Shown here: positions 3,375 to 54,319 of the stretch, in pieces
How positions within the stretch are numbered: position 1 is the first letter of the stretch
Layout of the letters: each line of letters begins with the position of its first letter
DNA from: Petrimonas sulfuriphila
GTDB taxonomy: Bacteria; Bacteroidota; Bacteroidia; Bacteroidales; Dysgonomonadaceae
NCBI GenBank assembly: GCA_038561985.1
Contig: CP073276.1
Location: 1,736,001 to 1,800,000, forward strand
Length of the DNA: 64,000 bases
Reading direction: 5' to 3'
The notes under the pieces: generated by a model
The model's database searches: none
Told to the model about the DNA's origin: nothing
Seen by the model: only the letters and a program-made list of their open reading frames with translations
Translations under genes and position numbers: made by a program

Positions 3375-4400
3375 ATGAGACACATATCTATTTTTACGAT
3401 CCTGTTGCTGGGTGGTCTCTTTGTGGTGACCGGTTGCAACAATGAGTGGGAAGAAGAGTTGTACACCCGGATGATATCCCTGAAAGCCCCGATCAACAGG
3501 GATGACGTATCGGTAATTTATTTAAGGTATCAGCCCGATAGCCTGCAGGTCACCTACAAGTTGCCGGTGATCGTGAGCGGCTCAAAAACCAACGACCGCG
3601 ATTATTCCGTCCGCATCGACGTGGATAACGATACGTTGAACCAGTTGAACTTCGGTAGATATGCTGCCCGGAGCGATCTGTATTACAAACAGCTGCCGGA
3701 AGAGTTTTTTGAATTGCCTTCGAAGACCTGCCGGATTCCCTCCGGTGCCGATGTGGCGTTCTTTCCCATACACTTCAACTTTTCGGGGTTGGACCTGGTG
3801 GAGAAATGGGTCTTGCCCCTGACCATCCTGCCCGATCCGTCCTATACGCTGAACACCTATAAAGGCCGGCAGAAAGCGTTGCTCTGGATCATGCCTTTTA
3901 ACGATTACTCGGGAATCTACAATGCCGCCAGCATGTATGTTTACTTTGGGGACAACACCACCAAGTACATGACCGCCAGCACCCGGGAAGCCCGGGTTGT
4001 GGATGAAAACACCGTATTTTTTTATGCCGGCATCACGGAGGAGCTGGCAGAGAACAGGGGCGATTTTAAGGTGAAGTGCGAATTTCTGGAACCGGATGAG
4101 GTGACGGAAGTTGAAGCCACGGGCCTCTATCTGAAGAAAGGGAGGTTGGTATTGACAGCCGAGAATCCCGCGCTGGAATTTGAAGTGATTGGCGAGCCGA
4201 CGTATGAAATAAAGGAAGAGCTGGATATCGACCGTCCGCACATCATCAAGCGTTTCTTTACGTTAACGATGGAGTACCGCTACAAAGATCCCGTTTCCAG
4301 TGAAAACATGGTCTTCCCCTACAGATGTAAAGGCACCATGCTGATGCAGCGCAACGTGAGCACACTGGTTCCGGACGAAGACCAGGCAATATTTTGGTAA
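3375..4400 (+). CDS. DUF1735/DUF4973-like surface lipoprotein of the SusCD locus
   Basis: This 341-residue protein begins with a lipoprotein signal (MRHISIFTILLLGGLFVVTGC, Cys at residue 21). The N-terminal part, with VIYLRYQPDSLQVTYKLPVIVSGS and a later segment ending in VLPLTILPD, resembles the immunoglobulin-like DUF1735/BT_3987-type domain that often follows SusD in Bacteroidales. The C-terminal part (NDYSGIYNAASMYVYFG onward) looks like the DUF4361/DUF4973-type ligand-binding half. Such proteins are usually surface glycan-binding proteins. It lies 24 bases after the SusD gene on the same strand. The fold assignment is from pattern recognition, and no binding residues can be named. Confidence 0.75.
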   Translation: MRHISIFTILLLGGLFVVTGCNNEWEEELYTRMISLKAPINRDDVSVIYLRYQPDSLQVTYKLPVIVSGSKTNDRDYSVRIDVDNDTLNQLNFGRYAARSDLYYKQLPEEFFELPSKTCRIPSGADVAFFPIHFNFSGLDLVEKWVLPLTILPDPSYTLNTYKGRQKALLWIMPFNDYSGIYNAASMYVYFGDNTTKYMTASTREARVVDENTVFFYAGITEELAENRGDFKVKCEFLEPDEVTEVEATGLYLKKGRLVLTAENPALEFEVIGEPTYEIKEELDIDRPHIIKRFFTLTMEYRYKDPVSSENMVFPYRCKGTMLMQRNVSTLVPDEDQAIFW

Positions 4401-39439: not shown

Positions 39440-40342
39440 TTATAAGGAGAAAAGTGTCTTATCAATTGACTCTTTTTTGTCTTTATCCACACCTGCCTTG
39501 TCTGCATAATAATTCCAGTTGTGTACCGTATCGTTAACCTGATCAATAATTTCCTCCGCCTTTTTATTGCGGATGGAACGTCCTATCACGATCAGATCTT
39601 CCCGTGTAATATTTTCCCGCTTCCCGTTAACACTCAACGCGTGACGGCTTACCCATTCGCTTCCGGGACGATAAGCATGACAGAGGTCGTATGCCGGGGC
39701 CAATCTCCACCGGTCTCCCTGTTTAAGAATAAAAGAGAAGTTCTTGCTATGGTCATCACAGTTGCGGGCTATCACATTAAACACCATACGGCGGAACATC
39801 TGTTCGGCTTCGGCATAAGTCAGCTTCAGCTCCCGCATGGCCTTTTCTTCCTCGGATTTTAAATTGGCTACAAAAGCCTCTTTCTTCGAAAGCATCTTGC
39901 TCGCAATTTCCACCAGGCTATCTATTTCCACCGAAAAGGTATTTACATTTTGTTTTAAAATGGCCGGCTCAATCTCCAATGCTCCCATTCCCCGTTTACC
40001 TATAAAACAAAGCATTTCTATGGGATTCATACTGTTTTCCGGCCGTCCTTGCTGCGCCAGCCACAAATTGATCAATTCATTCCCGTAACGGTCGGGCAGC
40101 ATGTCCGCAAGCAATCCGGGCAACCCTTTAAAAGTATCGAAAGAAGAACCGGTTTCTTTGCGTAATTCAGGGAAGGAGTAAATTCGTTGTTCCGGGGACA
40201 ACGGCATCTTTAAGGGAGATAGTTCCCATCCAAGTCTTTTAAAAGCAGGATCGTATTCAAAAGAAGCCCATCCGGATTTTTCATCCCAGGCAACGGCTCC
40301 TACCATTTTGCCCCATATATTCACGATGGCGGTATTCATCAT
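39440..40342 (-). CDS. HipA-like toxin kinase lacking its central ATP-binding segment
   Basis: This is a 300-residue protein. Residues 1-166 match the N-terminal HipA region (FSFPELRKETG, then FKGLPGLLADMLPDRYGNEL and CFIGKRGMGALEIEP). Residues 169-300 match the C-terminal kinase half: QMFRRMVFNVIARNCDDHSKN with catalytic D196 and N201, APAYD with D219, and HALSVNGKRENITREDL. Between them about 135 residues of normal HipA (family about 430) are absent, including the GGARPKA phosphate loop and the ATP-binding lysine region. The junction near base 39838 is in frame. The protein can be made but should be inactive as a kinase. It is paired with an upstream Xre antitoxin gene. Confidence 0.85.
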   Translation of the reverse strand: MMNTAIVNIWGKMVGAVAWDEKSGWASFEYDPAFKRLGWELSPLKMPLSPEQRIYSFPELRKETGSSFDTFKGLPGLLADMLPDRYGNELINLWLAQQGRPENSMNPIEMLCFIGKRGMGALEIEPAILKQNVNTFSVEIDSLVEIASKMLSKKEAFVANLKSEEEKAMRELKLTYAEAEQMFRRMVFNVIARNCDDHSKNFSFILKQGDRWRLAPAYDLCHAYRPGSEWVSRHALSVNGKRENITREDLIVIGRSIRNKKAEEIIDQVNDTVHNWNYYADKAGVDKDKKESIDKTLFSL

Positions 40343-40351
40343 TTACCAATT

Positions 40352-40714
40352 TTACCAATCAATATTCTCATTATCTGATTTATCTGTTTTCCTCCTTTTA
40401 GGAAAAGAAACCCGCTGTTTTTTTTTTCTCTCGGCTTGGGCCAGGGCTAACGGACTTTGCCGGCGGACAACCACAAAAACATCCATGATATGTAATTGAT
40501 CCAATACCCGCAATACCCGAATGAGTGTTGCGACCGTTACTGTGTCACCTCTTTCCAGCAAACTGAGTGTGGAGCGGCTTATTCCTGCATCTTCAGCAAG
40601 CATCGCCTGGGTTTTATTTTGCTCCATACGGTGATGTTTTACAAATTCTCCGATTTGACTGAGAATGTGATCATCACTCATTGCATTCCAATCGTTGCGT
40701 GATATATCATTCAT
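40352..40714 (-). CDS. HipB-like Xre-family antitoxin
   Basis: This 120-residue protein has a helix-turn-helix at about residues 20-75 (IGEFVKHHRMEQNKTQAMLA, then EDAGISRSTLSLLERGDTVTVATLIRVLRVLDQL). This is typical of the regulators that pair with HipA in Bacteroidales. The C-terminal tail is basic and disordered (RKKKQRVSFPKRRKTDKSDN). It binds operator DNA and HipA. It lies 9 bases upstream of hipA and has a visible -7 box (40753-40760). Confidence 0.88.
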   Translation of the reverse strand: MNDISRNDWNAMSDDHILSQIGEFVKHHRMEQNKTQAMLAEDAGISRSTLSLLERGDTVTVATLIRVLRVLDQLHIMDVFVVVRRQSPLALAQAERKKKQRVSFPKRRKTDKSDNENIDW

Positions 40715-40752
40715 AACAGAAGTTTTTTATGTATAGTGAATGAAAAACTACA

Positions 40753-40760
40753 CAAAGATA
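40753..40760 (-). promoter_or_regulatory. -7 box of hipBA
   Basis: The minus strand reads TATCTTTG, a perfect TAnnTTTG match, about 40 bases upstream of the hipB ATG at 40714. Confidence 0.55.
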
Positions 40761-40905
40761 TCGTTTTTTAATCAATAAATTTATTTTTGAATGAAATAAA
40801 ATTCAGACAGGGATGCCCAGTTTCTTTTTTAGGCAGTACATTTATTATCAAGCTGATACTTAGGCATCTTAAAGTTTTTATAGGACACTAGTGATTATGT
40901 ATAAT

Positions 40906-40948
40906 AAAAAAAGGGGTGTATCACAGATGTGATTTCACCCTCTTTTTA
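40906..40948 (-). terminator. Intrinsic terminator after ilvC
   Basis: A long hairpin with arms around GGGTG/CACCC and an inner stem ATCAC/GTGAT is flanked on both sides by A/T runs (seven A on the plus strand, giving a T-run for minus-strand transcripts). It would end the leu-ilv transcript; the symmetric flanks make it potentially bidirectional. Confidence 0.75.
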
Positions 40949-41060
40949 TTCGGATACTTATTACTTATCTGATTTGATCTGAGAACAGATTCAAATATTC
41001 ATTTCTCAAAAGGTAATTTTTTATTTTGAGACAACCTTCTTTATAAAAATAATAGAACCC

Positions 41061-42107
41061 TCAGTTGTTCTCCGGACGTAATTTCCTTACTACGGCTCCG
41101 GTCTGCCACATCTCGCTTTCGCGGAGGGCTTTTAGCTCTGCTTCCAGTTTCTCGCGGTAGTCGGCCTGCGAATTGCTGTCGATGGAGCGTTGCGCTTCAT
41201 TCCCACTGGCCACTTCTTTGTAAAGTTTTTCGAAGACGGGCTTGGTGGCATCGTGGAACGGTGTCATCCAGTCCAACGCACCGCGCTGGGCAGTTGTGGA
41301 GCAGTTGGCATACATCCAGTCCATCCCTTTTGCGGCAAAAAGCGGCATCAACGACTGTGTGAGCTCTTCTACCGTTTCGTTGAACGCTTCCGACGGGGTA
41401 TGTCCGTTTTCGCGGAGTACTTCGTACTGAGCCAGTAAGAGTCCCTGGATGGCACCCATTAATGTTCCGCGTTCACCGGTGAGGTCGGAATAGACTTCGC
41501 GTTTAAATGTTGTTTCGAACAGATAACCCGATCCAACACCAATTCCCAATGCTACAACACGGTCGAAAGCGCGTCCGGTAGCGTCCTGGAAAATGGCGTA
41601 AGAAGAGTTCAAACCGCGTCCTTCGAGGAACATTGTTCTCAACGAAGTTCCCGATCCTTTTGGTGCTACAAGGATCACATCCACATCGGCGGGCGGAATA
41701 ATTCCCGTGCGTTCCTTGTAGGTGATGCCGAAGCCGTGGGAGAAGTACAATGCTTTACCGGGAGTAAGATGCTTTTTCACCGTTGGCCAAACTTCAATTT
41801 GTGCTGCATCTGAAAGCAAATATTGAATAATGGTTGCTTTCTCACACGCCTCTTCAATTTCGAAAAGCGTTTCACCCGGAACCCAGCCATCAGCAACAGC
41901 TTTGTCCCAGGTTTTTCCTCCTTTGCGTTGTCCGACGATTACGTTGAAACCATTGTCACGCAGGTTTAGCGATTGTCCCGGACCTTGAACACCGTAGCCG
42001 ATCACTGCGATGGTTTCGTTTTTCAATGTTTCCTGTGCTTTGCTCAACGGAAACTCGTCGCGGGTAACTACATTTTCTTCTACCCCGCCAAAATTCATTT
42101 TTGCCAT
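41061..42107 (-). CDS. ilvC: Ketol-acid reductoisomerase
   Basis: This 348-residue enzyme is started at ATG 42107 (MAKMNFGGVEENVVTRDEFP) rather than 42146, since the extra 13 residues are not family-like. It has the Rossmann motif VIGYGVQGPGQSLNLRDNG, QYLLSDAAQIEVWP, LYFSHGFGITYK and VAPKGSGTSLR, and a KARI domain with EVYSDLTGERGTLMGAIQGL (acidic metal ligands). It converts acetolactate or acetohydroxybutyrate to dihydroxy acids for Val/Ile/Leu. It is the last gene of the leu-ilv block and is separated from ilvN by about 260 bases that hold a palindromic element. Confidence 0.96.
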   Translation of the reverse strand: MAKMNFGGVEENVVTRDEFPLSKAQETLKNETIAVIGYGVQGPGQSLNLRDNGFNVIVGQRKGGKTWDKAVADGWVPGETLFEIEEACEKATIIQYLLSDAAQIEVWPTVKKHLTPGKALYFSHGFGITYKERTGIIPPADVDVILVAPKGSGTSLRTMFLEGRGLNSSYAIFQDATGRAFDRVVALGIGVGSGYLFETTFKREVYSDLTGERGTLMGAIQGLLLAQYEVLRENGHTPSEAFNETVEELTQSLMPLFAAKGMDWMYANCSTTAQRGALDWMTPFHDATKPVFEKLYKEVASGNEAQRSIDSNSQADYREKLEAELKALRESEMWQTGAVVRKLRPENN

Positions 42108-42220
42108 ATTTTTTATTGATTTTAAAAACCGGGAACAAAGACACATCCGGCCCTTGCTTCCCCGGTCTGATTATTTACATTTTTATTGTTTTCGAATACA
42201 ATTGATTACGAAATGTTTAG

Positions 42221-42329
42221 ATGTTTTATGGGGTACCCGTCGATAAAGCAGGCGTAATCTGATATGTTGTTTGAGCGAAGCGAGTTATTTATCAGATAGC
42301 CTGTGAATCGGTAACGGGTCACAAAACAT
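42221..42329. repeat. 109-bp imperfect palindromic element between ilvN and ilvC
   Basis: The outer tips ATGTTTT (42221-42227) and AAAACAT (42323-42329) are complementary. Going inward, ACCCGT/ACGGGT, CGAT/ATCG, CAGGC/GCCTG and ATCTGATA/TATCAGAT also pair in order. The central loop of about 25 bases contains GAGCGAAGCGAG. The RNA would fold into one long interrupted hairpin. It could be a MITE-like or REP-like element, or an RNA processing or attenuation structure. Confidence 0.7.
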
Positions 42330-42370
42330 TGTCAATTGAGTAATTAGTTGTATTCATATTTTTATATTAT

Positions 42371-42934
42371 TTATAGATGTGATAGTTGTTCCTGCTTCAT
42401 CTCTTCCCGCTGCGCGAGCATGTCGCTCAGGCGTTCCACCTTCGACTTGGTGATGGCGATTCTGCCGGAGCGGATGAACTGGAGCACGCCGATCTTCTCG
42501 GCCAGCTCGTCGAAGAGGCCCTGCGTCTCGGCGTAGTGGCCGGCCTTGAGGAACACCACGCAGTCGTTGTTGACCTCGAGCACCCGGATGTTGTATTTCC
42601 GGATGAGGTATTCGATGGACCCGTGTTCCATAATCTTATCGGTAGCCAGTTTGTACAGGGCCAGCTCCTGGTGGATCAGCTCGTTGTCCACATTGAAGTA
42701 GGCTTTGAGCACATCGATACGTTTGTCGATCTGGCGCACCAGCTTCTTCATCGCTTCGTCGGATTCCGCAAAAACGGTGATGGTGAACTTATGGATGCCT
42801 GCCAGGGCCGAGGGCGAGACCGAGAGGGTCTCGATGTTCAGTTGCCGGCGCGTGAAGATGGTGGTGATCTGGTTGAGCACCCCTACCGTATTTTCTGAGA
42901 AAATGGTGACGGTATATAATGTTTTTCCTTCCAT
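42371..42934 (-). CDS. ilvN: Acetolactate synthase small (regulatory) subunit
   Basis: This 187-residue protein has an N-terminal ACT domain (YTVTIFSENTVGVLNQITTIFTRRQLNIETLSVSPSA style, residues 5-80), a second half with ELALYKLATDK, and a C-terminal ACT-like region. It binds branched-chain amino acids and activates the catalytic subunit encoded 12 bases upstream. Length matches Bacteroidales IlvN. Confidence 0.93.
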   Translation of the reverse strand: MEGKTLYTVTIFSENTVGVLNQITTIFTRRQLNIETLSVSPSALAGIHKFTITVFAESDEAMKKLVRQIDKRIDVLKAYFNVDNELIHQELALYKLATDKIMEHGSIEYLIRKYNIRVLEVNNDCVVFLKAGHYAETQGLFDELAEKIGVLQFIRSGRIAITKSKVERLSDMLAQREEMKQEQLSHL

Positions 42935-42946
42935 AGCTTGTTGAGT

Positions 42947-44704
42947 TTAGAGTTTGTGTCCGTTTCCAATCAGTATGTCGGTAACGCTTCCGCCGGCAGG
43001 TACCATGGGATAAACCATTCCTTTGGTTTCCACCACTGCTTCGAGCAGGTAGGCACCCTCGTGGGACAGCATCTCCTCGATGGCGCTGTCCAGCTCTTTC
43101 CGGTCGGTCACTTTCCTTCCCCGGATGCCGTAGGCTTCGGCAATCTTTACGAAGTCGGGATTCTTGAGGTGTGTCTCGGAGTATCGTTCATCGAAGAAGA
43201 GCTCCTGCCACTGTCGGACCATGCCCAGGTAGTTGTTGTTCAGCAGGATAATCTTGACGTCGATGTTGTACTCCAGGATGGTTCCGAGCTCCTGGATGGA
43301 CATCTGCAGGCCACCGTCTCCGACGAAGATGCAGACAGTACGGTCGGGAGCCCCGTATTTCGCCCCGATCCCGGCGGGAAGCCCGAACCCCATGGTGCCC
43401 AGTCCGCCCGAAGTGACCATGCTGCGTGTCAGCGTGGATTTGAAATAGCGGGTGGCCATCATCTGGTGTTGCCCCACGTCGGTCACGCATACTGCCTTAT
43501 GTCCCGTAGCTTCCGATACCTTGTTCACCACTTCACCCATCTTCAGCTCTCCTCCGTTTTCGGGATACAGTTCGGCCTTGATGACGCAATCGAACTCCGT
43601 CTTTTTGTACTGTCCGAATTTCTCCATCCACTCCGAATGTTTACGTTCCTCGATCAGAGCCGTGACGAGCGGCAGTGTGTCTTTGGCATTACCCAGCACC
43701 TTTACGGTGGTTTTCACGTTCTTGTCCATCTCCGCCAGGTCGATATCGAAGTGGATGATTTTTGCCTGCCGGGCGTAGGTGTTGAGGTTGCCGGTGACGC
43801 GGTCGTCGAAGCGCATGCCGATGGCGATCAGCACGTCGCACTCGTTGGTGTTCATGTTGGGAGCGATGTTGCCGTGCATGCCCAGCATCCCGGCGTTGAG
43901 CGGGTGGTCGGAGGGGATGGCGGAGAGCCCGAGGATGGTCGATCCGAACGGGATGTTGCCTTTCTCCAGGAATGTCATCAGCTCCTGCTCCGCGTTTCCG
44001 AGGATCACGCCCTGTCCCACCAGCGCCAGGGGCTTTTGCGCCCGGTTGATCAGCTCCGCCGCCGCCTTGATATTCTCCATTTCCGACTCAGGAAAAGGGA
44101 TGTAGCTCCTCAGGAACGATGTCCTGCTGTAGGTATAGTCGAGTTTGTTGATCTGCGCATCCTTCGTTATGTCGAGGACCACCGGTCCGGGGCGGCCGCT
44201 TTTGGCAATGTAAAAGGCACGGGAAACGGCCCAGGGAATCTCTTCCGCCCGCCTTACCTGATAGGCCCACTTGGTGATGGGTTGGGTGATACCGATCACA
44301 TCGGCTTCCTGAAAGGCATCGGAGCCCAGCAAGCCCGATATAACCTGTCCCGAGATCACCACCAGTGGGGTGCTGTCCATCATGGCGTCGGTGATTCCGG
44401 TTACGGCGTTGGTGGCTCCGGGGCCGGAGGTGACCAGGGCAACACCGGTTTTCCTGGATACGCGTGCGTAGCCTTGTGCTGCGTGGACGGCCCCTTGTTC
44501 GTGACGGACCAGGATATGTTTTATGTCGTTCTTATGATCGTACAGCGCGTCGAAAACGGGCATGATGGCGCCGCCGGGATAGCCGAACATGGTATCTACG
44601 CCTTCGGCCAGTAACGAGCGGATAAGGGCCTCACTTCCCGAAATGTTTACCTTGGCCTCCTCTGTGGAGGGTTGGGTGGATTGTGAATGATTACTCCTGT
44701 TCAT
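42947..44704 (-). CDS. ilvB: Acetolactate synthase large (catalytic) subunit
   Basis: This 585-residue thiamine-diphosphate enzyme has a PYR domain with VDTMFGYPGGAIMPVFDALY and HEQGAVHAAQGYARVS (catalytic Glu). A middle FAD-type domain follows, and then a PP domain with VGDGGLQMSIQELGTI and ILLNNNYLGMVRQWQELFF (TPP/Mg-binding motif). It condenses pyruvate with pyruvate or 2-ketobutyrate. It lies between ilvD (20 bases) and ilvN (12 bases). Motifs and length are normal. Confidence 0.96.
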   Translation of the reverse strand: MNRSNHSQSTQPSTEEAKVNISGSEALIRSLLAEGVDTMFGYPGGAIMPVFDALYDHKNDIKHILVRHEQGAVHAAQGYARVSRKTGVALVTSGPGATNAVTGITDAMMDSTPLVVISGQVISGLLGSDAFQEADVIGITQPITKWAYQVRRAEEIPWAVSRAFYIAKSGRPGPVVLDITKDAQINKLDYTYSRTSFLRSYIPFPESEMENIKAAAELINRAQKPLALVGQGVILGNAEQELMTFLEKGNIPFGSTILGLSAIPSDHPLNAGMLGMHGNIAPNMNTNECDVLIAIGMRFDDRVTGNLNTYARQAKIIHFDIDLAEMDKNVKTTVKVLGNAKDTLPLVTALIEERKHSEWMEKFGQYKKTEFDCVIKAELYPENGGELKMGEVVNKVSEATGHKAVCVTDVGQHQMMATRYFKSTLTRSMVTSGGLGTMGFGLPAGIGAKYGAPDRTVCIFVGDGGLQMSIQELGTILEYNIDVKIILLNNNYLGMVRQWQELFFDERYSETHLKNPDFVKIAEAYGIRGRKVTDRKELDSAIEEMLSHEGAYLLEAVVETKGMVYPMVPAGGSVTDILIGNGHKL

Positions 44705-44724
44705 ATTTGTAGATTTATAGACTG

Positions 44725-46563
44725 TTATAGTATTCTCACACCGCCTAAATCGGCTGAACTGACGAAATGGGCGTAGAGCTTCAGTGCGTTGGATACTTTC
44801 CGGTCCCTGACCGGCTTAAAGGCGGCTTTCCCTTTCGCCTCCTCCTGTTTTCTCCGTTCCGCCAGCTCGGCGTCGGAGAGTTGGACCCGGATGATCCGGT
44901 TGGGAATATCGATTTCGATAACATCACCGTCTTTCACAAGCCCGATGTTGCCCCCGGCAGCCGCTTCAGGAGATATATGCCCGATGGACAGGCCCGAGGT
45001 GCCTCCCGAGAACCGTCCGTCGGTAATCAGGGCGCAGGCTTTTCCCAAATGTTTTGCTTTGATGTAGGAAGTGGGGTAGAGCATCTCCTGCATCCCCGGC
45101 CCTCCCTTAGGCCCTTCGTACACGATGACGACCACGTCGCCGGCTTCAATCTCTCCGTTCAGGATCCCGGTGCACGCTTCGTCCTGGGAATGGTACACCT
45201 TGGCTTTTCCCGAGAATTTCCAGATATTCTCATCTACCCCTGCCGTTTTCACCACGCAGCCGTTCTGTGCGATGTTACCTTTCAGGACGGCGAGTCCGCC
45301 GTCGAGGGTATAGGCATTTGCGATGTTCCGGATACAACCGTCTTCCCGGTCGGCATCGAGGGTTTTGTAAACGGCGTTTTGCGAGCCCATGACCAGGTTA
45401 AACCTGTTTCCCGGTGCCGAGCTGTAGATCGCTTGCGCCTCGGGATGGATATTTTCTGTTGTGATGTCGTACTTTTCTATCGCCTGTTTCAGCGTCAGTC
45501 CGTCGGCACGGTGGACCGATGTGTCGATCAGCCCGCCTTTTGCCAGTTCGCCCACGATACCCAGAATGCCTCCGGCGCGGTTCACATCCTGGACGTGGTA
45601 CTTCTTGGTGTTGGGCGCTACTTTGCATACGCAAGGCACCTTACGCGAGAGGGCGTCGATATCGTCCATCGTGAAATCCACTTCCGCCTCACGGGCAATG
45701 GCCAGCAGGTGAAGGATGGTGTTGGTGGAGCCGCCCATGGCAATGTCGAGCGACATGGCGTTGAGGAACGCCGCGCGTGTGGCGATGTTTCTCGGCAGCA
45801 CGCTTTCGTCGCCGTCGAAATAGTAGCGGTAGGCGTTTTCCACGATCTGCCCTGCTGCTTTGCGGAAGAGTCCGATCCGGTTGGCGTGTGTGGCCACGAT
45901 CGTCCCGTTGCCGGGCAGTGCCAGGCCGATGGCTTCGTTGAGGCAGTTCATGGAGTTGGCGGTAAACATTCCCGAGCACGAGCCGCAGGTGGGGCAAGCC
46001 AGCTTCTCGAGCTGCGAGATGCGGTCGTCCGACACGGCATCGTCGGCCGATTCGATCATCGCATCGATCAGGTCGATGGATTCGTCGCCAATTTTTCCCG
46101 CCTCCATGGGCCCGCCCGAAACAAAGATGGCGGGGATGTTCAGCCGCATGGCTGCCATGAGCATGCCCGGCGTTATCTTGTCGCAGTTGCTGATGCACAC
46201 CATCGCATCCACCTTGTGAGCGTTAATCATATATTCTATGGAGTCGGCAATCAGGTCGCGCGACGGTAACGAGTAGAGCATCCCGTCGTGGCCCATGGCG
46301 ATGCCGTCGTCCACGGCGATGGTGTTGAATTCGGCGGCAAAGCACCCCAACTTTTCGATTTCGGCTTTCACCATCTGCCCGATATCGTGCAGGTGTGCGT
46401 GCCCGGGCACAAACTGGGTGAATGAATTCACCACGGCGATGATGGGTTTTCCCATCTGCTCGTCTTTCATTCCGTTAGCCCTCCACAGCGCGCGTGCGCC
46501 GGCCATCAGGCGGCCCTGAGTGGAGGTGTAGCTCCGGAGGTGTTTATTGTCTTTACGGTTCAT
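44725..46563 (-). CDS. ilvD: Dihydroxy-acid dehydratase
   Basis: This 612-residue enzyme has Fe-S ligands in [15 protein letters not shown] (Cys123, Cys127) and [20 protein letters not shown], along with [21 protein letters not shown] near the C-terminus. It dehydrates dihydroxy acids to 2-keto acids in Ile/Val/Leu synthesis. The ATG is preceded by a 175-base gap filled by a 12-bp tandem repeat that separates it from leuB. This could give ilvDBN-C its own expression control. Confidence 0.96.
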
Positions 46564-46596
46564 TCCTGTATGTTCCTATTTTATTGTTTTCTTTTA

Positions 46597-46735
46597 TTTC
46601 AATCTTAATCCCTATCTCTATTTCAATCTCTATTTCAATCTCTATTTCAATCCCTATTTCAATCTCAAATTCAATCTCAAATTCAATCTCAAATTCAATC
46701 TCAAATTCAATCTTATTCTCTATCTCTATCTCTAT
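46597..46735. repeat. 12-bp tandem repeat array between leuB and ilvD
   Basis: About eight consecutive 12-base units run from about 46620 to 46715: first ATTTCAATCTCT-type, then AATTCAATCTCA-type. They are followed by 6-base TATCTC units to about 46733 and preceded by related degenerate sequence. It fills the whole leuB-ilvD gap, so the transcript would carry a purine-rich repeat just before the ilvD start. Array length could vary by slippage. Confidence 0.8.
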
Positions 46736-46738
46736 TTC

Positions 46739-47824
46739 TTATAAAGTAACTAAAATGGAGCTTTTAATATACTCCGCAATCCAGTCCCCCACCTCACTTG
46801 TCCCGTAGGCTTTTCCCCCTTCGGCAATATCTTCGGTGACGACGCCCGCTTCGAGGCTTGCGTTGACGGCCCGGCGGATGGCTGCTCCTTCTTCCTGCAG
46901 GTTGAAAGCGTATTCAAACATCAGTGCGGCGGAGAGGATCATGGCGGCGGGATTGGCAATGTTTTTTCCGGTTGCCTGCGGGTAGGAGCCGTGGATCGGT
47001 TCGAACAGGGAGGTGTGTATGCCTATCGAAGCGGAGGGGAGCATCCCCAGTGATCCGGTGATGACCGATGCTTCGTCGGTGAGGATGTCGCCGAAGAGGT
47101 TTTCGGTTACCAGCACATCGAAGCTCTTGGGCCACTGGATGATGCGCATGGCTGCGTTGTCCACGAACAGGTAATCGGTCTCGATGTCGGGGTATTGCGG
47201 GGCGATCTCCTGCGCGATCTGGCGCCACAGGCGGGAGGTGGCAATCACGTTTGCCTTGTCCACCACGGTAAGCTTCTTGCGGCGTTGCCCGGCAAACTTG
47301 TAGGCCAGGTGCAGGATCCGTTCGATCTCTTCGCGCGTGTAGACACAGGTGTCGTAAGCCGTGTCTCCGTCTTCGCTCCGTCCTTGCGGCCGTCCGAAGT
47401 ACATGCCTCCCGTCAGTTCGCGGATGCAGACGAAGTCGGCTCCTTCCACCAGGTCGGCGCGAAGGGGTGATTTGTGGATCAGCGAGGGGAACGTCATTAC
47501 GGGACGGATGTTTCCGTACAGTCCCAGTTGCTTGCGCATCCGGAGCAGCCCCTGCTCGGGGCGTACCCTGGCGTTAGGGTCGTTGTCGAACTTGGGGTGT
47601 CCGATGGCGCCGAACAACACCGCGTCTGCCTGCATGCACACTTCGTGCGTCTCCGGCGGATAGGGGTCGCCGACGGCATCGATGGCGCAAGCGCCGACAA
47701 TGGCTTCCGTGAACGTTACCTCGTGGTTAAATTTCTCGCATACGGCACGCGTCACTTTCAACGCCTGGTCCATGATCTCGGGACCGATGCCGTCGCCGGG
47801 CAATACTGCTATCTTCAATTTCAT
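46739..47824 (-). CDS. leuB: 3-isopropylmalate dehydrogenase
   Basis: This 361-residue decarboxylating dehydrogenase has [19 protein letters not shown] at the N-terminus and [10 protein letters not shown]. Substrate-binding arginines lie in [18 protein letters not shown] and [27 protein letters not shown] and [27 protein letters not shown] (metal-binding Asp) follow. It carries out the third step of leucine synthesis. It is 22 bases downstream of the cimA-like gene; its stop is at the edge of the tandem repeat. Confidence 0.96.
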
Positions 47825-47846
47825 AGGTTTTCTTTTCTTTTTATTT

Positions 47847-49403
47847 TTACGGTAGCTCCATGTGGCGGATCACCGGTATGTTTCCTTTTTCTATCATGTT
47901 CAGCATTTTTATCGTGGCCTTGATGGCGGCAGCCGTCTGGTCGACATCCAGTCCCCGGGTTTTGAAGACCTTCCCGTCGAACCTCCACGTGATGATGGTC
48001 TGTACGTAGGCGTTGGTTTTTCCGCCGGGGGGAATGACCACCACGTAGTCGAGCAAATCGGGCGTGGGTTTGTTGAGGCTCTTGTAAATCTTGTACATGG
48101 CCTTCGAGAAGGCGTGGTACTGCCCGTCTCCCGCGGCTGACTGCTGATACACCTCCCCCCGGATGGATATCTTTACGGTGGCTGTCGGGCGCATGCCGTC
48201 GGTGAGGTTCAGCGAGTAGTTCAGTATCTGTATCTCCTGGTTGTCGATTCCGTTCTTCAGGATGTCGGAAACGATGTAGGGCAGCTCATCGGGGCTGACC
48301 AGCTCTTTCTTGTCGCCCAGCTCGATGATGCGGGCCGTCACTTTTTTGGCGGCTTCATCGTCTACTTCGATTCCCAGCGCCTCCAGGTTCTTCAGGATGT
48401 TGGCCTTGCCGGAGTTCTTCCCCAGGGCGTATTCCCGTGAACGTCCGAACCGCTCGGGCACGAGGTCGTTGTGGTAAAGGTTCTTCTTCTTGTCGCCATC
48501 GGCATGGACTCCGGCCACCTGTGTGAACACGTTGTCACCGATAACGGGTTTGTTGTTGGGGATACGTACGCCGGAGTAACTTTCCACGATCTTGCTGACG
48601 CTGTAGAGCTTGTCCTCGGCAACGTTGGTGCTGAGCTTCAGCTGGTCGTGGATCAGGGCGACGATGCTGGTGACGGGCGCGTTACCGGCTCGTTCCCCCA
48701 GGCCGTTCACGGTGACGTGGACGCCTTTTACTCCCGCTTTCACCGCTTCGAAAACGTTGGCTACCGCCAGGTCGTAATCGTTGTGCGCGTGGAAGTCGAA
48801 GTGCAGGCCGGGGTACCTGCCGATCATCTTCTCACAGAACATCCGGGTCTCGGAGGGGTTCAGTATGCCCAAGGTGTCGGGCAGCATGTAGCGGGTGATG
48901 GGCTGGTGTTGCAGCTCATCCATCATCTCGAACACGTACGCCTCTGAATCGCGCATCCCGTTGGACCAGTCTTCGAGGTAGACGTTCACGTCCATTCCCC
49001 GCTTTTTGGCTTCGGCGATGACCGACTTTATGTCGGCGAGGTGCTCCCGGGCCGTTTTTCTGAGTTGATGGGTGCAATGTTTCTCCGAACCTTTGCAAAG
49101 GAGGTTGACCACCCGGCATCCCGCGGCGGTGATCCAGTCGAGCGATGCGTTTCCATCCACAAATCCCAGGATCTCTATCTTGTTGATATGCCCGTGACTG
49201 TTTGCCCATTGTGCAATCTTCTGCACCGACTTAAATTCTCCTTCCGATACCCGCGCGGACGCGATCTCTACCCGGTCGACATTTAACTCTTCAATGAGCA
49301 AGCGGACAATGCTTACTTTTTCTTCCGTTGCGAATGAAACGCCCGAGGTCTGTTCCCCGTCGCGCAACGTGGTGTCCATTATTTCTATTTTCCGCTTTAC
49401 CAT
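47847..49403 (-). CDS. Citramalate/2-isopropylmalate synthase-like protein (second LeuA paralogue)
   Basis: This is a protein of about 518 residues. ATG 49403 ([20 protein letters not shown]) is the family-like start; the open frame extends upstream but that part overlaps leuD and is not family sequence. A TIM-barrel HMGL domain ([25 protein letters not shown] with metal His; [12 protein letters not shown]) is followed by a LeuA-type allosteric domain ([20 protein letters not shown]). It may be citramalate synthase, feeding isoleucine from pyruvate, since no ilvA is seen nearby. A second isopropylmalate synthase is the alternative. It lies between leuD and leuB. Confidence 0.88.
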
Positions 49404-49432
49404 GTGTTGATGAACTGAAACGTGTGATACAT

Positions 49433-50029
49433 TCAATAGACGTAAGGGCGATTCTTCTCGTACGCTTCGATCTTCTCTTTGTTCGACAGGAGGAAGTCGA
49501 TGTCGTCGAGCCCTTTCAGGAGGCATTCTTTTTTATAGGGATTGATGTCGAACGGCTCCCTGTTTCCGGTCTGGTTGTTCCTGATGAACTGCTCCTCGAG
49601 GTTCACCGTAACCGTTGCCTGCGGGTCCTGGCCGACCGATGTGAACAGTTCTCCGAGGAACTTCTCGCTGACCACCACGGGCAGGATGCCGTTGTTAAGC
49701 GCATTGTTGCGGAAGATATCGGCAAAGAAGCTCGATACCACCACCTTGAAGCCGTATCCGGCAATTGCCCAGGCGGCATGCTCGCGGCTTGACCCGCTGC
49801 CGAAGTTTTTCCCTGCCACCAGGACTTCGCCGCTGTAGGCGGGGTTGTTGAGGACGAAATCGGCTTTCGGCTCGCCCGATTTTTCGTACCGCCAGTCGGC
49901 AAACAAGTTGTCTCCGAACCCTTCGCGGGTAGTGGCTTTCAGGAAGCGGGCGGGAATGATCTGGTCGGTGTCCACGTTCTCTATCGGAAGGGGGACGTAT
50001 GTGGATGTGATTGTTTTGAATTTTTCCAT
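49433..50029 (-). CDS. leuD: 3-isopropylmalate dehydratase small subunit
   Basis: This 198-residue swivel-domain subunit has [20 protein letters not shown] at the N-terminus and the substrate-loop motif [17 protein letters not shown] (residues about 72-88). It pairs with LeuC to isomerise isopropylmalate. It follows leuC by 37 bases. Length and motifs are typical. Confidence 0.96.
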
Positions 50030-50066
50030 ATTTGTTTGATGTACTGATGTGCTGATCGAATAGTGG

Positions 50067-51452
50067 TTACGGTGCCGTTATCTTTCCCGTTACGGCAGCA
50101 GCGGCGGCTACCAGCGGGCTTGCCAGGATGGTGCGTGCGCCGGGCCCTTGTCTCCCCTCGAAGTTACGGTTGGATGTGGAGACGGCATATTTTCCGGCCG
50201 GTACTTTATCGTCGTTCATGGCCAGGCAGGCGGAGCATCCCGGCTGACGGAGCTCAAAGCCAGCTTCTTCCAGGATCTTGTCCAGCCCTTCAGCTTCAAT
50301 CTGCTGGCGGACCTGCCAACTTCCGGGTACCAGCCATGCTGTCACGTTGCCGGCTTTCTTTTTCCCTTTCACGTAGTGGGTGAACACGCGGAAGTCTTCG
50401 ATGCGCCCGTTGGTACAACTGCCCAGGAAGACGTAGTCGATCGGTTTCCCTTCCAGTTTTTGTCCGGGTTCGAAACCCATGTATTTCAACGATTTCTCAA
50501 ACGAGATCTTTCCGGCTTCGTCGATGGCCGAAAGTTCGGGAATGGCTCCGTCGATGGGCATGCCCATTCCGGGATTGGTTCCGTAGGTTATCATCGGTTT
50601 TATTTGGGAAGCATCGAACGTGACCTCTTTATCGAAGGCAGCGCCTTCGTCGGACTTCAACGTTTTCCAGTAGGCCATCGCTTCGTCCCACCTTTCCCCC
50701 TTGGGAGCAAACTCGCGCCCCTGGATGTAGTTGTAGGTTGTTTCGTCGGGGGCGATCAATCCTCCGCGGGCACCCATCTCGATGCTCAGGTTGCAAAGCG
50801 TCATCCGCTGTTCCATGGTCAGGTTGCGGACCGCTTCCCCCGCATACTCCACGAAGTAGCCCGTGGCACCGCCTGTGGTGAGTTGCCAGATCATGTACAA
50901 CGCCATGTCCTTTGCACTTACGCCGTCGTTGAGCTTCCCTTCGAAGTTCACGCGCATGGTTTTCGGGCGTGTTTGCAGGATACATTGCGACGATAACACC
51001 ATCTCCACCTCGCTGGTCCCTATGCCGAAAGCGATTGCGCCGAACGCTCCGTGGGTGGAGGTATGGCTGTCGCCGCAGACGATGGTCATTCCCGGCTGAG
51101 TGAAGCCGTTCTCCGGGCCGATCACGTGAACGATCCCGTTTTTGGAATGGCGAAGGCCGTAGTAGGTGAGTCCGAACTCCCGGGCATTTTTGGCCAGGGT
51201 GTCCACCTGGTACCGGGAAACCTCATCGCGGATGGGCTTGTCTTGTTCCACGGTAGGGATGTTGTGGTCGGCCGTAAGCAGGGTCTGTCCGGGACGAAAG
51301 ACCTTCAGCCCCCGTTCCCGCAGCCCCGAGAAAGCTTGCGGGCTGGTTACCTCGTGGCACAAATGCCTGTCGATGTACAGTTGCGAAGGGCCGTCTTTCA
51401 CTGTGGTAACCACGTGCGCGTCCCATATCTTATCAAAAAGCGTCTTATTCAT
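50067..51452 (-). CDS. leuC: 3-isopropylmalate dehydratase large subunit
   Basis: This 461-residue aconitase-family subunit has [34 protein letters not shown] and [10 protein letters not shown], which together give the [4Fe-4S] cysteines. [18 protein letters not shown] is the usual LeuC segment. It is 37 bases downstream of leuA. It isomerises 2-isopropylmalate with LeuD. Confidence 0.96.
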
Positions 51453-51489
51453 ATAATTTTGTCTGTTGTATGTTATCTGTTAGCTTTGT

Positions 51490-52977
51490 TCATTCTACAA
51501 ATTTATTCACCGCATCTATAAATGCTTCCACGGATGCCGAAACGATATCGGTGTTTGCCGAGAAGCCGTAGTAGAGCATCCCGTTGTGTTCCACCTGCAT
51601 GTGGACCTTGCCCACGTCGTCGCTTCCGCGGTTGATGGCCTGGATCAGGAACTCCTGAATGACCGTTTCGCGGCTGATGATTTTCTTTACTGCTTTTATC
51701 GCCGCGTCCACCGGACCGTTTCCGGTTGCTGATGCCTCAAAATGCTCCCCGGCTATGTTCAGGCCGATGCTGGCCACGTTGCGCAGCCCCACGCCGCAGG
51801 TAACCTGCAGGTAATCGATCTGGATGCGGTTCATGCGAGACTCTTTCCCGACCAGGGCGAGTATATCGTCGTCCTTGATGTCTTTTTTCCTGTCGGCGAG
51901 AGAAAGGAATTTCTGGTAAACGTCATCCAGCTCGCCGTTGTCGAGATCCACTCCCAGCAGGGTCAACCGGTTTTTCAGTGCGGCGCGGCCGCTCCGTGCT
52001 GTCAGCACGATGGAGTTCTCGTCGATCCCCACGTCTTTCGGGTCGATGATCTCGTACGTTTCCACGTTCTTCAGCACGCCGTCCTGGTGAATGCCCGAGG
52101 AGTGTGCAAAGGCGTTTCGGCCGACGATGGCCTTGTTGGGCTGGACGGGCATGTTCATCAATGTGGAAACCAACCGGCTGGTGGAATATATCTTGGTGGT
52201 GTTGATGTTGGTGTCGAACCCGAGGTCCTTGTGGCTCTTCAGCGCCATCACCACTTCCTCGAGCGAAGTGTTCCCCGCGCGTTCCCCAATACCGTTGACG
52301 GTTACTTCAACCTGGCGGGCGCCGTTGAGGACTCCCGAGAGGGTGTTGGCTGTAGCCATCCCCAAATCCTGGTGGCAATGCGTCGAGAGGATCGCATTTT
52401 TCAGATCTACATGATCCACCAGGTATTTTATTTTTGCACCGTAAGCGTTTGGAAAACAGTAACCGGTGGTGTCGGGGATATTGACCACGGTGGCTCCGGC
52501 GTTTACGACTGCCTGCACCACACGTGCGAGGTATTCGTTGTCGGTGCGGCCTGCATCTTCGGCGTAGAACTCCACATCATCCACAAACCGGCGGGCATAC
52601 TTCACGGCTTTTACGGCACGCTCGATGATCTCTTCGCGGTTGGAGTTGAACTTGTGTTTGATGTGCATATCCGATGTGCCGATACCTGTATGGATCCGTT
52701 TGCGTTTGGCGTATTTCAGCGATTCGGCAGCCACTTCGATGTCTTTTTCCACCGCGCGTGTGAGCGCACATATAACGGGCCAGGTGACGGCTTTGGAGAT
52801 CTCAACCACAGAGTTGAAGTCGCCGGGGCTGGATACTGGAAATCCGGCTTCGATAACATCTACCCCCAGCAATTCCAGGGCTTTGGCCACCTGGATTTTT
52901 TCGATGGTGTTTAACTGACACCCGGGAACCTGTTCCCCGTCGCGCAACGTCGTGTCAAAAACATAAATTCTTTCCAT
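51490..52977 (-). CDS. leuA: 2-isopropylmalate synthase
   Basis: This 495-residue enzyme has a TIM barrel ([35 protein letters not shown] with metal-binding His; [16 protein letters not shown]) and a C-terminal allosteric domain ([20 protein letters not shown]). It commits 2-ketoisovalerate to leucine and is usually feedback inhibited by leucine. It is the first structural gene of the block. The 170 bases before it hold a branched-chain-rich leader peptide and an attenuator hairpin. Confidence 0.96.
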
Positions 52978-53007
52978 TATAACCTGTATTATTCGTTTTT
53001 TTACAAG

Positions 53008-53042
53008 AAAAAAACCTTTCCCACACGGTGAGAAAGGTTTTC
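53008..53042 (-). terminator. Leader terminator (attenuator) of the leu-ilv block
   Basis: On the minus strand AACCTTTCTCACC pairs with GGGAAAGGTT around a short loop, followed by seven T. This intrinsic terminator lies 31 bases upstream of leuA, between the leader peptide and the gene. Its 5' arm contains TCTCACC (53027-53033), which can instead pair with GGTGAGA (53082-53088) overlapping the leader stop codon. The two structures exclude each other. Confidence 0.8.
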
Positions 53043-53083
53043 TTTATTTTATTGTTCTTTATTTCAATATCGATATACCGGTC

Positions 53084-53149
53084 TCACCCTCTGAAGTCCT
53101 CCAGAAGTAGAATAGAAATGACTAGAATAGCGATAGAATGAGTGTTCAT
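53084..53149 (-). CDS. Branched-chain leader peptide of the leu-ilv attenuator
   Basis: This short frame of 21 residues starts ATG 53149 and begins MNTHSIAILVISILLL, ending at TGA 53084-53086. Nine of 21 residues are Ile, Leu or Val, including the run Ile-Leu-Leu-Leu. The stop codon lies within GGTGAGA, the segment that can pair with the terminator arm. This is the arrangement of classical attenuation. A translating ribosome that reaches the stop would cover that segment and allow termination. Stalling at Ile/Leu codons would leave it free to block the terminator. Translation is inferred, not shown. Confidence 0.75.
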   Translation of the reverse strand: MNTHSIAILVISILLLEDFRG

Positions 53150-53390
53150 TGATAAAATGAAAAAACTTGTTCGTTAATTGTCTGCAAAGAAAAAGCAAAA
53201 AAACGGAATAACAAAATATTTTCCAGTTTTTATTCAAAAAAAATTACAAATTGAAATAAAAAGAGAGTTATCGATTACAAAATATATTCCCTGTAAAATG
53301 AAATAAACTGTGTTTCAGTTGATTAGTGTTTTTGATTCACTCGCTGGTTTTCACCGGATAAAAAGTGTCGGAACGGAAAGAAATTATCAC
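53150..53390. other. Divergent AT-rich region between the leader peptide and the transporter gene
   Basis: This stretch must contain the leu-ilv promoter on the minus strand. I found no exact TAnnTTTG box for it, only the near match CAAAATAT on the plus strand. No gene or repeat was recognised. Confidence 0.4.
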
Positions 53391-53398
53391 TATTTTTG
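53391..53398 (+). promoter_or_regulatory. -7 box of the EamA-type transporter gene
   Basis: TATTTTTG matches TAnnTTTG and lies 28-35 bases before the ATG at 53426. A TTG inside it would extend the frame, but this position makes it unlikely as a start. Confidence 0.5.
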
Positions 53399-53425
53399 CG
53401 TGCCGGATTATTCGGGTTGCTTCGA

Positions 53426-54319
53426 ATGAAAGAAAACAATAAAGCACTTTTGTTTACTGTTATTGCTGTTGCCAGCTGGTCGACAGTTGCTTCTGCTTTC
53501 AAGATCGGGCTGCGTCACTACGGCTACTTTGAGCTGATCCTGGTTTCGGCCGTCACGGCGATGCTGATCTTTGCGGGGGTTATCACGGTCCAGAAAAAAT
53601 GGCCTCTGTTGCGGAGGCTGACCCTTAAGGAGACGGGGAGCTATGCTTTTACCGGCTTGTTGAATCCTGCCATTTATTACCTGATCCTTTTCAAGTCGTA
53701 CGATTTGTTGCCGGCGCAGATTGCGCAGCCCATCAATTATTTCTGGCCCATCCTGTTGACCCTGTTGTTAGCGGTGATCGAGAAAAAGCCTGTTCCCTTG
53801 TTCAAGTTTATCGGGATGACAATCTCGTTTGGCGGCGTGGTGCTGATCTCGGTGGGAACCGAAGGGATCGCCGGAGTGGAGCTCTCAAAACCGGGAGTCT
53901 TACTGGCTTTCTTCAGTGCGTTCCTGTGGGCTTCCTTCTGGATAGTGAACCGACGGAACAAAAACGTGGACGGTATCCTGGGTTTGTTCCTGAGTTTTAT
54001 GTTCGGTTCCGTCTATCTGTCGCTGGCCACACTCTTTGTCCCGGTCAGCCTGGGTTCCCTGCAGGGGTTTTTGTCGGCCGTTTACGTGGGGTTGTTTGAA
54101 ATGGCGGTGCCGTTTATCTTTTTCGGGCTGGCGTTACAGAAGACCACCAATCCCGCACTTACCAATCAGTTGTGTTACCTTTCTCCCTTCATTTCCCTTT
54201 TTCTTATCCATGCGGTTTTGGGTGAAACCATCTATTTTACCACCTACATGGGCTTGTTCCTGATCGTTTTCGGCATTCTGCTAAACGAATATTTAAACAA
54301 GCGCAGGGTTGCCGTTTAA
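53426..54319 (+). CDS. EamA/DMT-family inner-membrane transporter
   Basis: This 297-residue protein with about ten membrane helices starts at ATG 53426 (MKENNKALLFTVIAVASWSTVASAFKIGL). It has two EamA repeats; the first includes WSTVASAFKIGLRHYGYFELI and the second LLAFFSAFLWASFWIVNRRNK. ALTNQLCYLSPFISLFLIHAVLGE near the end is typical of drug/metabolite transporters. Substrate unknown. It is divergent from the leu-ilv block, so amino-acid efflux is conceivable but is only a guess. Confidence 0.88.
   Translation: MKENNKALLFTVIAVASWSTVASAFKIGLRHYGYFELILVSAVTAMLIFAGVITVQKKWPLLRRLTLKETGSYAFTGLLNPAIYYLILFKSYDLLPAQIAQPINYFWPILLTLLLAVIEKKPVPLFKFIGMTISFGGVVLISVGTEGIAGVELSKPGVLLAFFSAFLWASFWIVNRRNKNVDGILGLFLSFMFGSVYLSLATLFVPVSLGSLQGFLSAVYVGLFEMAVPFIFFGLALQKTTNPALTNQLCYLSPFISLFLIHAVLGETIYFTTYMGLFLIVFGILLNEYLNKRRVAV

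Follow-up and report, generated by a model that had tools for sequence, protein, structure and literature searches.

Is expression of the leu-ilv genes of Petrimonas sulfuriphila tuned by the supply of the amino acids they make, and could the DNA directly upstream of leuA be the place where that supply is read? The window analyzed here (a stretch of 64,000 nucleotides from a genome of 3.83 Mb assembled as a single contig) holds a leu-(CimA-like)-ilv block that, together with the putative attenuator in front of it, lies on the minus strand throughout, and the genes from leuA to ilvC presumably share a single transcript:

51490..52977, minus strand: leuA, the nearest gene after the attenuator, with its ATG at 52977 (TIGR00973, 660 bits, cut-off 598.7)
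50067..51452, minus strand: leuC (TIGR00170)
49433..50029, minus strand: leuD (TIGR00171)
47847..49526, minus strand: gene for a LeuA/CimA-family enzyme (top match NF042433 CimA, 645 bits, below the cut-off of 950)
46739..47824, minus strand: leuB (TIGR00169)
44725..46563, minus strand: ilvD (NF009103, 1057 bits)
42947..44704, minus strand: ilvB (TIGR00118)
42371..42934, minus strand: ilvN (TIGR00119, 72.6 bits, cut-off 56.9)
41061..42146, minus strand: ilvC (TIGR00465)

The gene at 47847-49526, whose start codon is uncertain (the ORF as listed overlaps leuD), has a Leptospira-type citramalate synthase as its top NCBIfam match, with a score under the cut-off of that family. Its product is perhaps an (R)-citramalate synthase, and its place in the leu block may allow isoleucine to be made via the citramalate route; the block would then serve isoleucine too, which fits a leader holding Ile, Leu and Val. 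Most of the leuB-ilvD gap is occupied by a tandem repeat of the 12-bp unit TATTTCAATCTC (46595-46729, 11.2 copies, 84% matches).

A preliminary description of this DNA had placed a leader-peptide attenuator ahead of leuA. The region between the promoter-like site and leuA contains the following features:

53185..53215, minus strand: promoter-like site, TTTG (53215-53212), 19 nt, TTTCTTTG (53192-53185), a loose Bacteroides-type -33/-7 pattern
53084..53149, minus strand: leader peptide ORF MNTHSIAILVISILLLEDFRG including its stop, 21 aa, frame kept in relatives
53102..53128, minus strand: control codons ATT CTA GTC ATT TCT ATT CTA CTT CTG (Ile8-Leu16)
53088..53107, minus strand: hairpin 1:2, CUUCUGGA-GGAC-UUCAGAGG (53107-53100 with 53095-53088), predicted by folding, spanning the final two Leu codons
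53077..53088, minus strand: strand 2, GGUGAGAccGGU, which is the 5' arm of the antiterminator and overlaps the leader stop
53027..53038, minus strand: strand 3, ACCuuUCUCACC, common to terminator and antiterminator
53008..53037, minus strand: terminator hairpin 3:4 with a T7 run, from folding and comparison with relatives

The three parts that had been named beforehand are in place. The 21-codon frame (53149-53084) carries 4 Ile, 4 Leu and 1 Val, that is, nine Ile/Leu/Val among its 21 residues. By sequence and fold, a terminator hairpin with T7 (53037-53008) follows, its stem pairing 53037-53028 with 53024-53015 around the loop 53027-53025, and its T7 (53014-53008) ending 30 nt upstream of the leuA ATG. 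The leader stop TGA (53086-53084) lies within GGTGAGA (53088-53082), and this heptamer is perfectly complementary to TCTCACC (53033-53027) of the terminator arm. Two elements were absent from that description: hairpin 1:2, which spans the last Leu codons, and another antiterminator block, GGU/ACC, beyond a 2x2 loop, which extends the whole antiterminator of this genome to GGUGAGAccGGU/ACCuuUCUCACC. The RNA of 53160-53008 folds to -38.5 kcal/mol (shuffled mean -27.18, z -3.34; one of 200 shuffles equally good), and a shorter stretch (53130-53000) gives a z of -2.00, with 5 of 200 shuffles equally good. Strand 3 includes the letters CCUUUCU (53037-53031), a likeness to the 16S rRNA 3' tail of the phylum.

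The promoter-like site was recognized by the loose form of the Bacteroides-type consensus, T(T/G)TG-17 to 23 nt-T(A/T)NNTTTG. This pattern stands 21-43 nt upstream of the leader ATG in 76 of 77 leaders from the family (in all counts the Dysgonomonadaceae, Bacteroidales) and in 41 of 57 leaders outside it, compared with 2/77 and 0/57 shuffled stretches, respectively. A stricter form, TA..TTTG, which the window site does not match, is found in 23/77 family and 49/57 other leaders. Generic scans of 40000-54000 were uninformative, both for sigma-70-type promoters (10 sites, 9.7 in shuffles) and for terminators (20 sites, 19.4 in shuffles; the attenuator terminator is not among them).

Ribosome-mediated attenuation is a textbook mechanism, and the leader-peptide attenuators of the enterobacterial leu, ilvGMEDA, ilvBN, trp and his operons likewise combine a short leader that abounds in the amino acids of the operon, with rare Leu codons, and antiterminator and terminator helices; they also have a protector helix, for which hairpin 1:2 is the candidate here. 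What sets the present arrangement apart from them is that strand 2 overlaps the leader stop and that the candidate protector shares about one base with strand 2 (in this genome). We consider it highly probable, judging from sequence, that the window element is a ribosome-mediated transcription attenuator controlling leu-ilv, and we infer the stalling, the termination and the response to Leu/Ile/Val as follows. RNA polymerase would start some 30 nt upstream of the leader ATG, followed by a ribosome translating the 21-codon leader. With charged Leu, Ile or Val tRNA in short supply, the ribosome would stall within the control codons, its leading edge halting just before strand 2, which could then pair with the emerging strand 3; the antiterminator so formed would block the terminator, and leu-ilv would be transcribed. 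With abundant amino acids, the ribosome would reach UGA and cover strand 2, strands 3 and 4 would pair, and transcription would stop at T7. With no ribosome, hairpin 1:2 would form, and it is predicted to block strand 2 in most relatives folded and to leave most of strand 2 unblocked in this genome. Attenuators depend on kinetics, not on equilibrium; since folding of the full-length RNA at equilibrium prefers the terminator over the antiterminator, this model needs kinetics, and the order of events in transcription must decide.

Conservation of the leader frame among relatives had been named beforehand as the point on which the attenuator should stand or fall. The regions upstream of LeuA homologs came from the best 80 among 593 or more relatives, plus genomes from the same genus, family and order (74 of 92 LeuA places in the family plus named records, and 47 of 47 in the order sample). 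A region was counted as positive when it held an ATG frame 12-33 codons long, with six or more Ile/Leu/Val among eight consecutive residues, followed by a terminator of -10 kcal/mol or better. The frame proved conserved: leader and terminator precede leuA in 76 of the 77 distinct regions from the family and in 58 of the 105 distinct regions from elsewhere (these regions are mutually related and hence not independent trials), compared with 0/385 and 0/525 dinucleotide shuffles, respectively. The sole family region failing, L111, has both leader and terminator under a slightly different search. Lowering the threshold to five of eight gave 69/105 outside the family and 2/525 in shuffles. The 105 outside regions are mostly from Bacteroidales, with a few labelled just Bacteroidetes, Bacteroidota or Flavobacteriaceae; 36 of them lacked leader plus terminator even under the loosest threshold, and in at least four genomes of those 36 regions (G133, G195, G127 and G205) the element stands upstream of ilvD instead. 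At 23 loci outside the order, the scan used found no leader directly upstream of leuA. From these sequence comparisons we conclude that the leader and predicted terminator in front of leuA are not a product of chance, and that the same leader design, as recognized by this search, recurs widely across Bacteroidales. At E 0.01, a covariance model (R1, built from the alignment A2 described below) had matches in 83 of the 198 genomes from the order, a count that is not used as a prevalence because many matches are weak or are antisense echoes of the terminator (the second match in this genome, G000, is one). Two of the leuA matches, L322 (G335) and L333 (G381), contain one in-frame TAA apiece, and in two genomes from another order (L337 and L338, at about 3934-4081, reverse complement) a MMQISIIITSVIVVNV-type leader with a terminator lies about 1.3 kb behind leuA.

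A second point raised beforehand, whether the alternative pairing is maintained in relatives, received a divided answer: the complementarity is kept across species, and few independent joint changes can be placed on a tree. Over 134 elements, strand 2 and strand 3 scored 19.58 within their own species, 16.29 when swapped (maximum of 40 permutations 16.67) and 12.76 when shuffled. For a test of the flanking pairs, elements were anchored on GTGAG and CTCAC alone (107 of the 134 have both anchors, 102 of them distinct). The first flanking pair, the strand-3 side of which sits in the terminator loop, so that the terminator does not require it, forms in 94/102 (GC 44, AT 35, GT 12, TA 3), compared with a permuted mean of 71.6 and a highest of 500 permutations of 81. 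An excess is also seen for the second pair (71/102; permuted mean 57.4, maximum 65) and the third (44; 35.5, maximum 43), and none for the fourth (41/102, control 42.2). Positions 5 and 6, beyond any continuous helix, likewise exceed all permutations (69 and 72, as opposed to 48.7 and 56.7), and position 2 goes up from 71 to 87/102 when its partner is slid by one; these two observations imply that the permutation excess is partly due to shared ancestry.

Alignment A2 covers 62 of 87 non-redundant elements, selected for a GTGAG-like arm and omitting Prevotella-type and the most distant elements. Within it, 84.0% of the antiterminator cells pair (at most 56.1% with the partner slid by up to three columns), and 36 cells are changed on both sides, as opposed to 10.5 after shuffling. 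Three pairs have a double change; 57 of 500 shuffles also attain this number, and the double changes fall almost wholly in two flanking pairs. On a LeuA tree of the 72 elements with full LeuA, the first flanking pair shows 7 and 9 changes, two of them on the same branch (0.4 expected), while mismatched control positions show three same-branch joint changes (0.7 expected). Complementarity of the arms is, by comparison of these sequences, clearly kept across species, and the candidate independent compensatory events are few and inseparable from the controls. Larger joint differences occur in single lineages: in a separate lineage (L092 and L093) the arms read GTGTGTGAGA/TCTCACACAC, and in others GAAGCGAG/CTCGCTTC and GTGAGAATGGT/GCCATTCTCAC. 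The terminator in A2 has 92.8% of its cells paired and 31 double-change cells, compared with 8.7 in shuffles.

The preliminary description had also called the architecture simple, with the ribosome at the stop codon itself masking the antiterminator arm. The masking is borne out by modelling (see below); the architecture is less simple than that, as a conserved hairpin lies over the last control codons. The 25-nt stretch of hairpin 1:2 folds to a mean of -6.33 kcal/mol in 85 distinct relatives (81 of which reach -3), compared with -4.00 for chimeras that join 5' and 3' halves from different relatives (of 200 such means the lowest was -4.53) and -2.76 for shuffled stretches. On alignment A1, 15 cells are changed on both sides (6.7 in shuffles) and 77.5% of the cells are paired, with 74.0% paired when slid by one column, so that the alignment test alone is weak. 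Overall, this predicted hairpin over the last control codons is conserved. Its position is that of the protector or pause hairpin in the trp and his attenuators.

Strand 2 (sought between 20 nt into the leader and the terminator) begins a median of 12 nt past the last Ile/Leu/Val codon of the run (IQR 11-13, n=132). Relative to the end of the stop codon, the arm starts at a median of -6 (IQR -19 to -5), with two peaks at about -6 and about -21; in Bacteroides-type leaders the frame passes through the arm and stops further downstream. Since this stop-relative distance varies while the control-codon distance of about 12 nt stays, the stop codon is not the fixed point. In one relative (L003, 2351-2469) the in-arm stop reads TGG and the frame is longer; by eye the arm still pairs through G-U, and the automatic search picked a different pairing. 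Stalling was modelled for 107 of the 134 elements with an assumed leading edge 12 nt beyond the first A-site base. A ribosome whose A site holds the last Ile/Leu/Val codon ahead of the arm would leave the core of strand 2 free in 102/107 (the control codon was required to end before the arm, and the leaders had been preselected for at least six of eight Ile/Leu/Val), and the freed core is predicted to pair with strand 3 at a mean probability of 0.996. A ribosome at the stop would cover the core wholly in 101/107 and at least partly in 107/107, a figure inflated by an arm search that favoured stop-near sites.

Codon choice in the leaders departs from that in the genes. CTA makes up 36% of Leu codons both in the family leaders (108/304) and in other leaders (93/261), compared with 2-3% in leuA genes and in the window operon, a ten- to twentyfold enrichment, and ATT accounts for 85% and 76% of Ile codons in leaders, compared with 17-38% in genes; these codon counts are not independent events, given the kinship among leaders and the constraint that hairpin 1:2 puts on their letters. 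The content of the leaders also tends to follow the operon, as judged from their sequences. In 13 of 16 stretches taken from R1 matches the first gene is ilvD, 66-79% identical to the window IlvD (the remaining three comprise two leuA-first stretches and one that opens with an acetolactate-synthase-like gene, assigned by eye). In these 13 ilvD-first leaders (L361-L371, L373 and L374; e.g. MKLLNTVLVVVVVVVLKNIE and MKSQLLTSLVSVVVVVNEGK) Val makes up 32% of Ile/Leu/Val, compared with 11% across the 134 leuA-first leaders (p 4e-5 by rank test, kinship ignored), and at least two Val are present in 10/13 and 41/134, respectively. Four genomes have both leaders; in three of them the ilv leader is the richer in Val, and in G044 both leaders have two Val, those of the leu leader being behind the control run. 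A codon content that follows the operon is what an attenuation mechanism requires. The window IlvD used as a phylum-wide query gave, besides itself, just matches of 50-54% identity, and two of the 29 loci scanned held a frame and a hairpin.

Several other readings of the element were weighed. That it is a plain terminator next to a chance small frame, the leader never being translated, is a reading to which we give hardly any credence: AT-rich DNA does readily yield Ile/Leu-rich frames (10-15 of 77 shuffled regions at the loosest threshold), but frame and terminator were never found jointly in shuffles at six of eight, and neither the spacing nor the codon choice resembles what chance would give. 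Just as improbable is a leader that merely aids translation of leuA by reinitiation, or that is a functional small protein. Leader genes have indeed been proposed to raise translation in several phyla including Bacteroidetes, at distances of 11-14 bp, in the accessible text of that work (PMC4833913). The present leader, however, ends 106 nt upstream of leuA with the terminator in between, and its relatives range from 14 to 30 aa and vary in sequence outside the control run. A little more room, though still very little, is left for control of termination by a protein or small molecule bound to the conserved strand 3 (CCUUUCUCAC), by itself or in addition to the ribosome. In its favor, CCTTTCTCAC of strand 3 does not vary among the family rows of A1 (30 of 30), with strand 4 drifting via G-U changes, which exceeds what the terminator by itself needs. 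Strand 3, however, already has two pairing partners, and this double duty in terminator and antiterminator in part accounts for its invariance; extra pairs between the GG behind strand 2 and the CC of strand 3 are present in 48 and 29 of the 62 A2 rows, which explains the conservation in part; and the codon evidence needs a translating ribosome, with no Rfam riboswitch match obtained. An RNA polymerase pause site behind hairpin 1:2 was also considered for the conserved GG after GTGAG and set aside; pairing with the strand-3 CC partly explains these letters.

The remaining alternative is a two-state variant of the same mechanism, in which hairpin 1:2 does not exclude strand 2 in this clade, so that an untranslated leader would mean read-through and only a ribosome at the stop codon would trigger termination. 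We treat it as a tenable but less favored version. It agrees with the fold of the window RNA up to strand 3 with no ribosome, which holds both 1:2 and 2:3 (core pairing probability 0.99), and with the 35 of 107 relatives (the window included) that form 2:3 without a ribosome, 31 of them along with a 1:2 hairpin of at least four pairs. Against it, 70 of the 107 show hairpin 1:2 without the antiterminator, like the trp protector, and the distinction hangs on one or two base pairs in a fold that is thermodynamic, not kinetic. The relatives would thus split into predicted protector and predicted two-state leaders.

Similar arrangements stand before other amino-acid operons. The same genome has a His-rich leader, MKVNKLHHHHFHTCNQAS, with a terminator before hisG (L208 of G000, minus strand of the locus), and a Phe/Tyr-rich leader, MKQNHFAYSFYFYFYFSK, with a terminator before pheA (L263 of G000); in the latter, strand 2 (ACAGGATTT) lies one base past the stop and has the complement AAATCCTGT. 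Counted over this genome and its relatives, leader and terminator accompany 14 of 15 hisG and 13 of 17 pheA matches (raw counts), with arm sequences quite unlike the leu-ilv arms. Small frames containing WWW lie near trp genes in G102, G104, G106 and G107 (L285, L217, L221 and L228), which belong to other families of the order; no Trp leader was seen in the trp stretches of this genome, and no Thr leader in eight thrA upstream stretches at the threshold used.

Rfam gave nothing but a tRNA at the gathering threshold over eight loci. In the window at 52500-53500, its best amino-acid leader match was Phe_leader at 20.8 bits (threshold 55), and no T-box was among 16 matches up to E 5, all of which stayed below threshold. 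The comparative study of Lopatovskaya and others from 2010 may cover the leu-ilv element. In the literature searched, largely without subscription journals and in part through partial texts, we found no description of this element in Bacteroidales. Leader-peptide attenuators are described for the Corynebacterium ilvBNC operon and other Actinobacteria (PMC11857589, PMC1262725, PMC10272879, from the parts available), where a branched-chain leader likewise precedes an ilv operon, in another phylum and with other downstream genes, a likeness drawn from the descriptions. In Staphylococcus aureus, again of another phylum, the available part of a report describes a leucine-rich attenuator peptide that also controls branched-chain amino acid genes and acts alongside CodY (PMC5794164). 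Within the phylum, a study of Flavobacterium psychrophilum reports strong clues for leader-peptide attenuation ahead of amino-acid operons, the same mechanism as proposed here, and lists pheA and hisG among structured elements shared within Flavobacteriaceae; its attenuation section, as available, mentions neither leu-ilv nor Bacteroidales (PMC9723704). A transcriptome map of Bacteroides thetaiotaomicron notes sORFs in long 5' UTRs that are 'reminiscent of leader peptides', and leuA and ilv are absent from its main text as available (PMC7366714). The preliminary remark that attenuation is much less described in Bacteroidota is therefore fair, but not absolute in view of the Flavobacterium study; in the literature searched, as far as the accessible texts go, attenuation in this phylum had just been hinted at. 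The mechanism itself is classical and partly anticipated in print, and the two-state leader is a possible new variant.

The present analysis offers a concrete, testable account of how branched-chain amino acid synthesis may be controlled in an order that contains major gut bacteria, and the elements, which have no Rfam family among those scanned, can be annotated from the present alignments. That attenuation exists would hardly surprise a specialist; what may surprise is the wide, multi-operon use in an order with little-mapped amino-acid regulation, and the tight spacing. A still broader picture, in which Bacteroidales possess an order-wide attenuator set (leu, ilv, his, phe and partly trp) with a spacing of about 12 nt and coupled transcription and translation, and in which the untranslated default in the window clade is read-through, is speculative and, taken whole, rather unlikely. 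If true, the spacing of about 12 nt would imply tight ribosome-RNA polymerase coupling in the phylum, and the default of the window clade would be the reverse of that in the trp operon. Attenuators of this type work only where ribosome and RNA polymerase move in step, so that their conservation leads one to expect coupled transcription and translation in Bacteroidales, for which these attenuators would offer a reporter.
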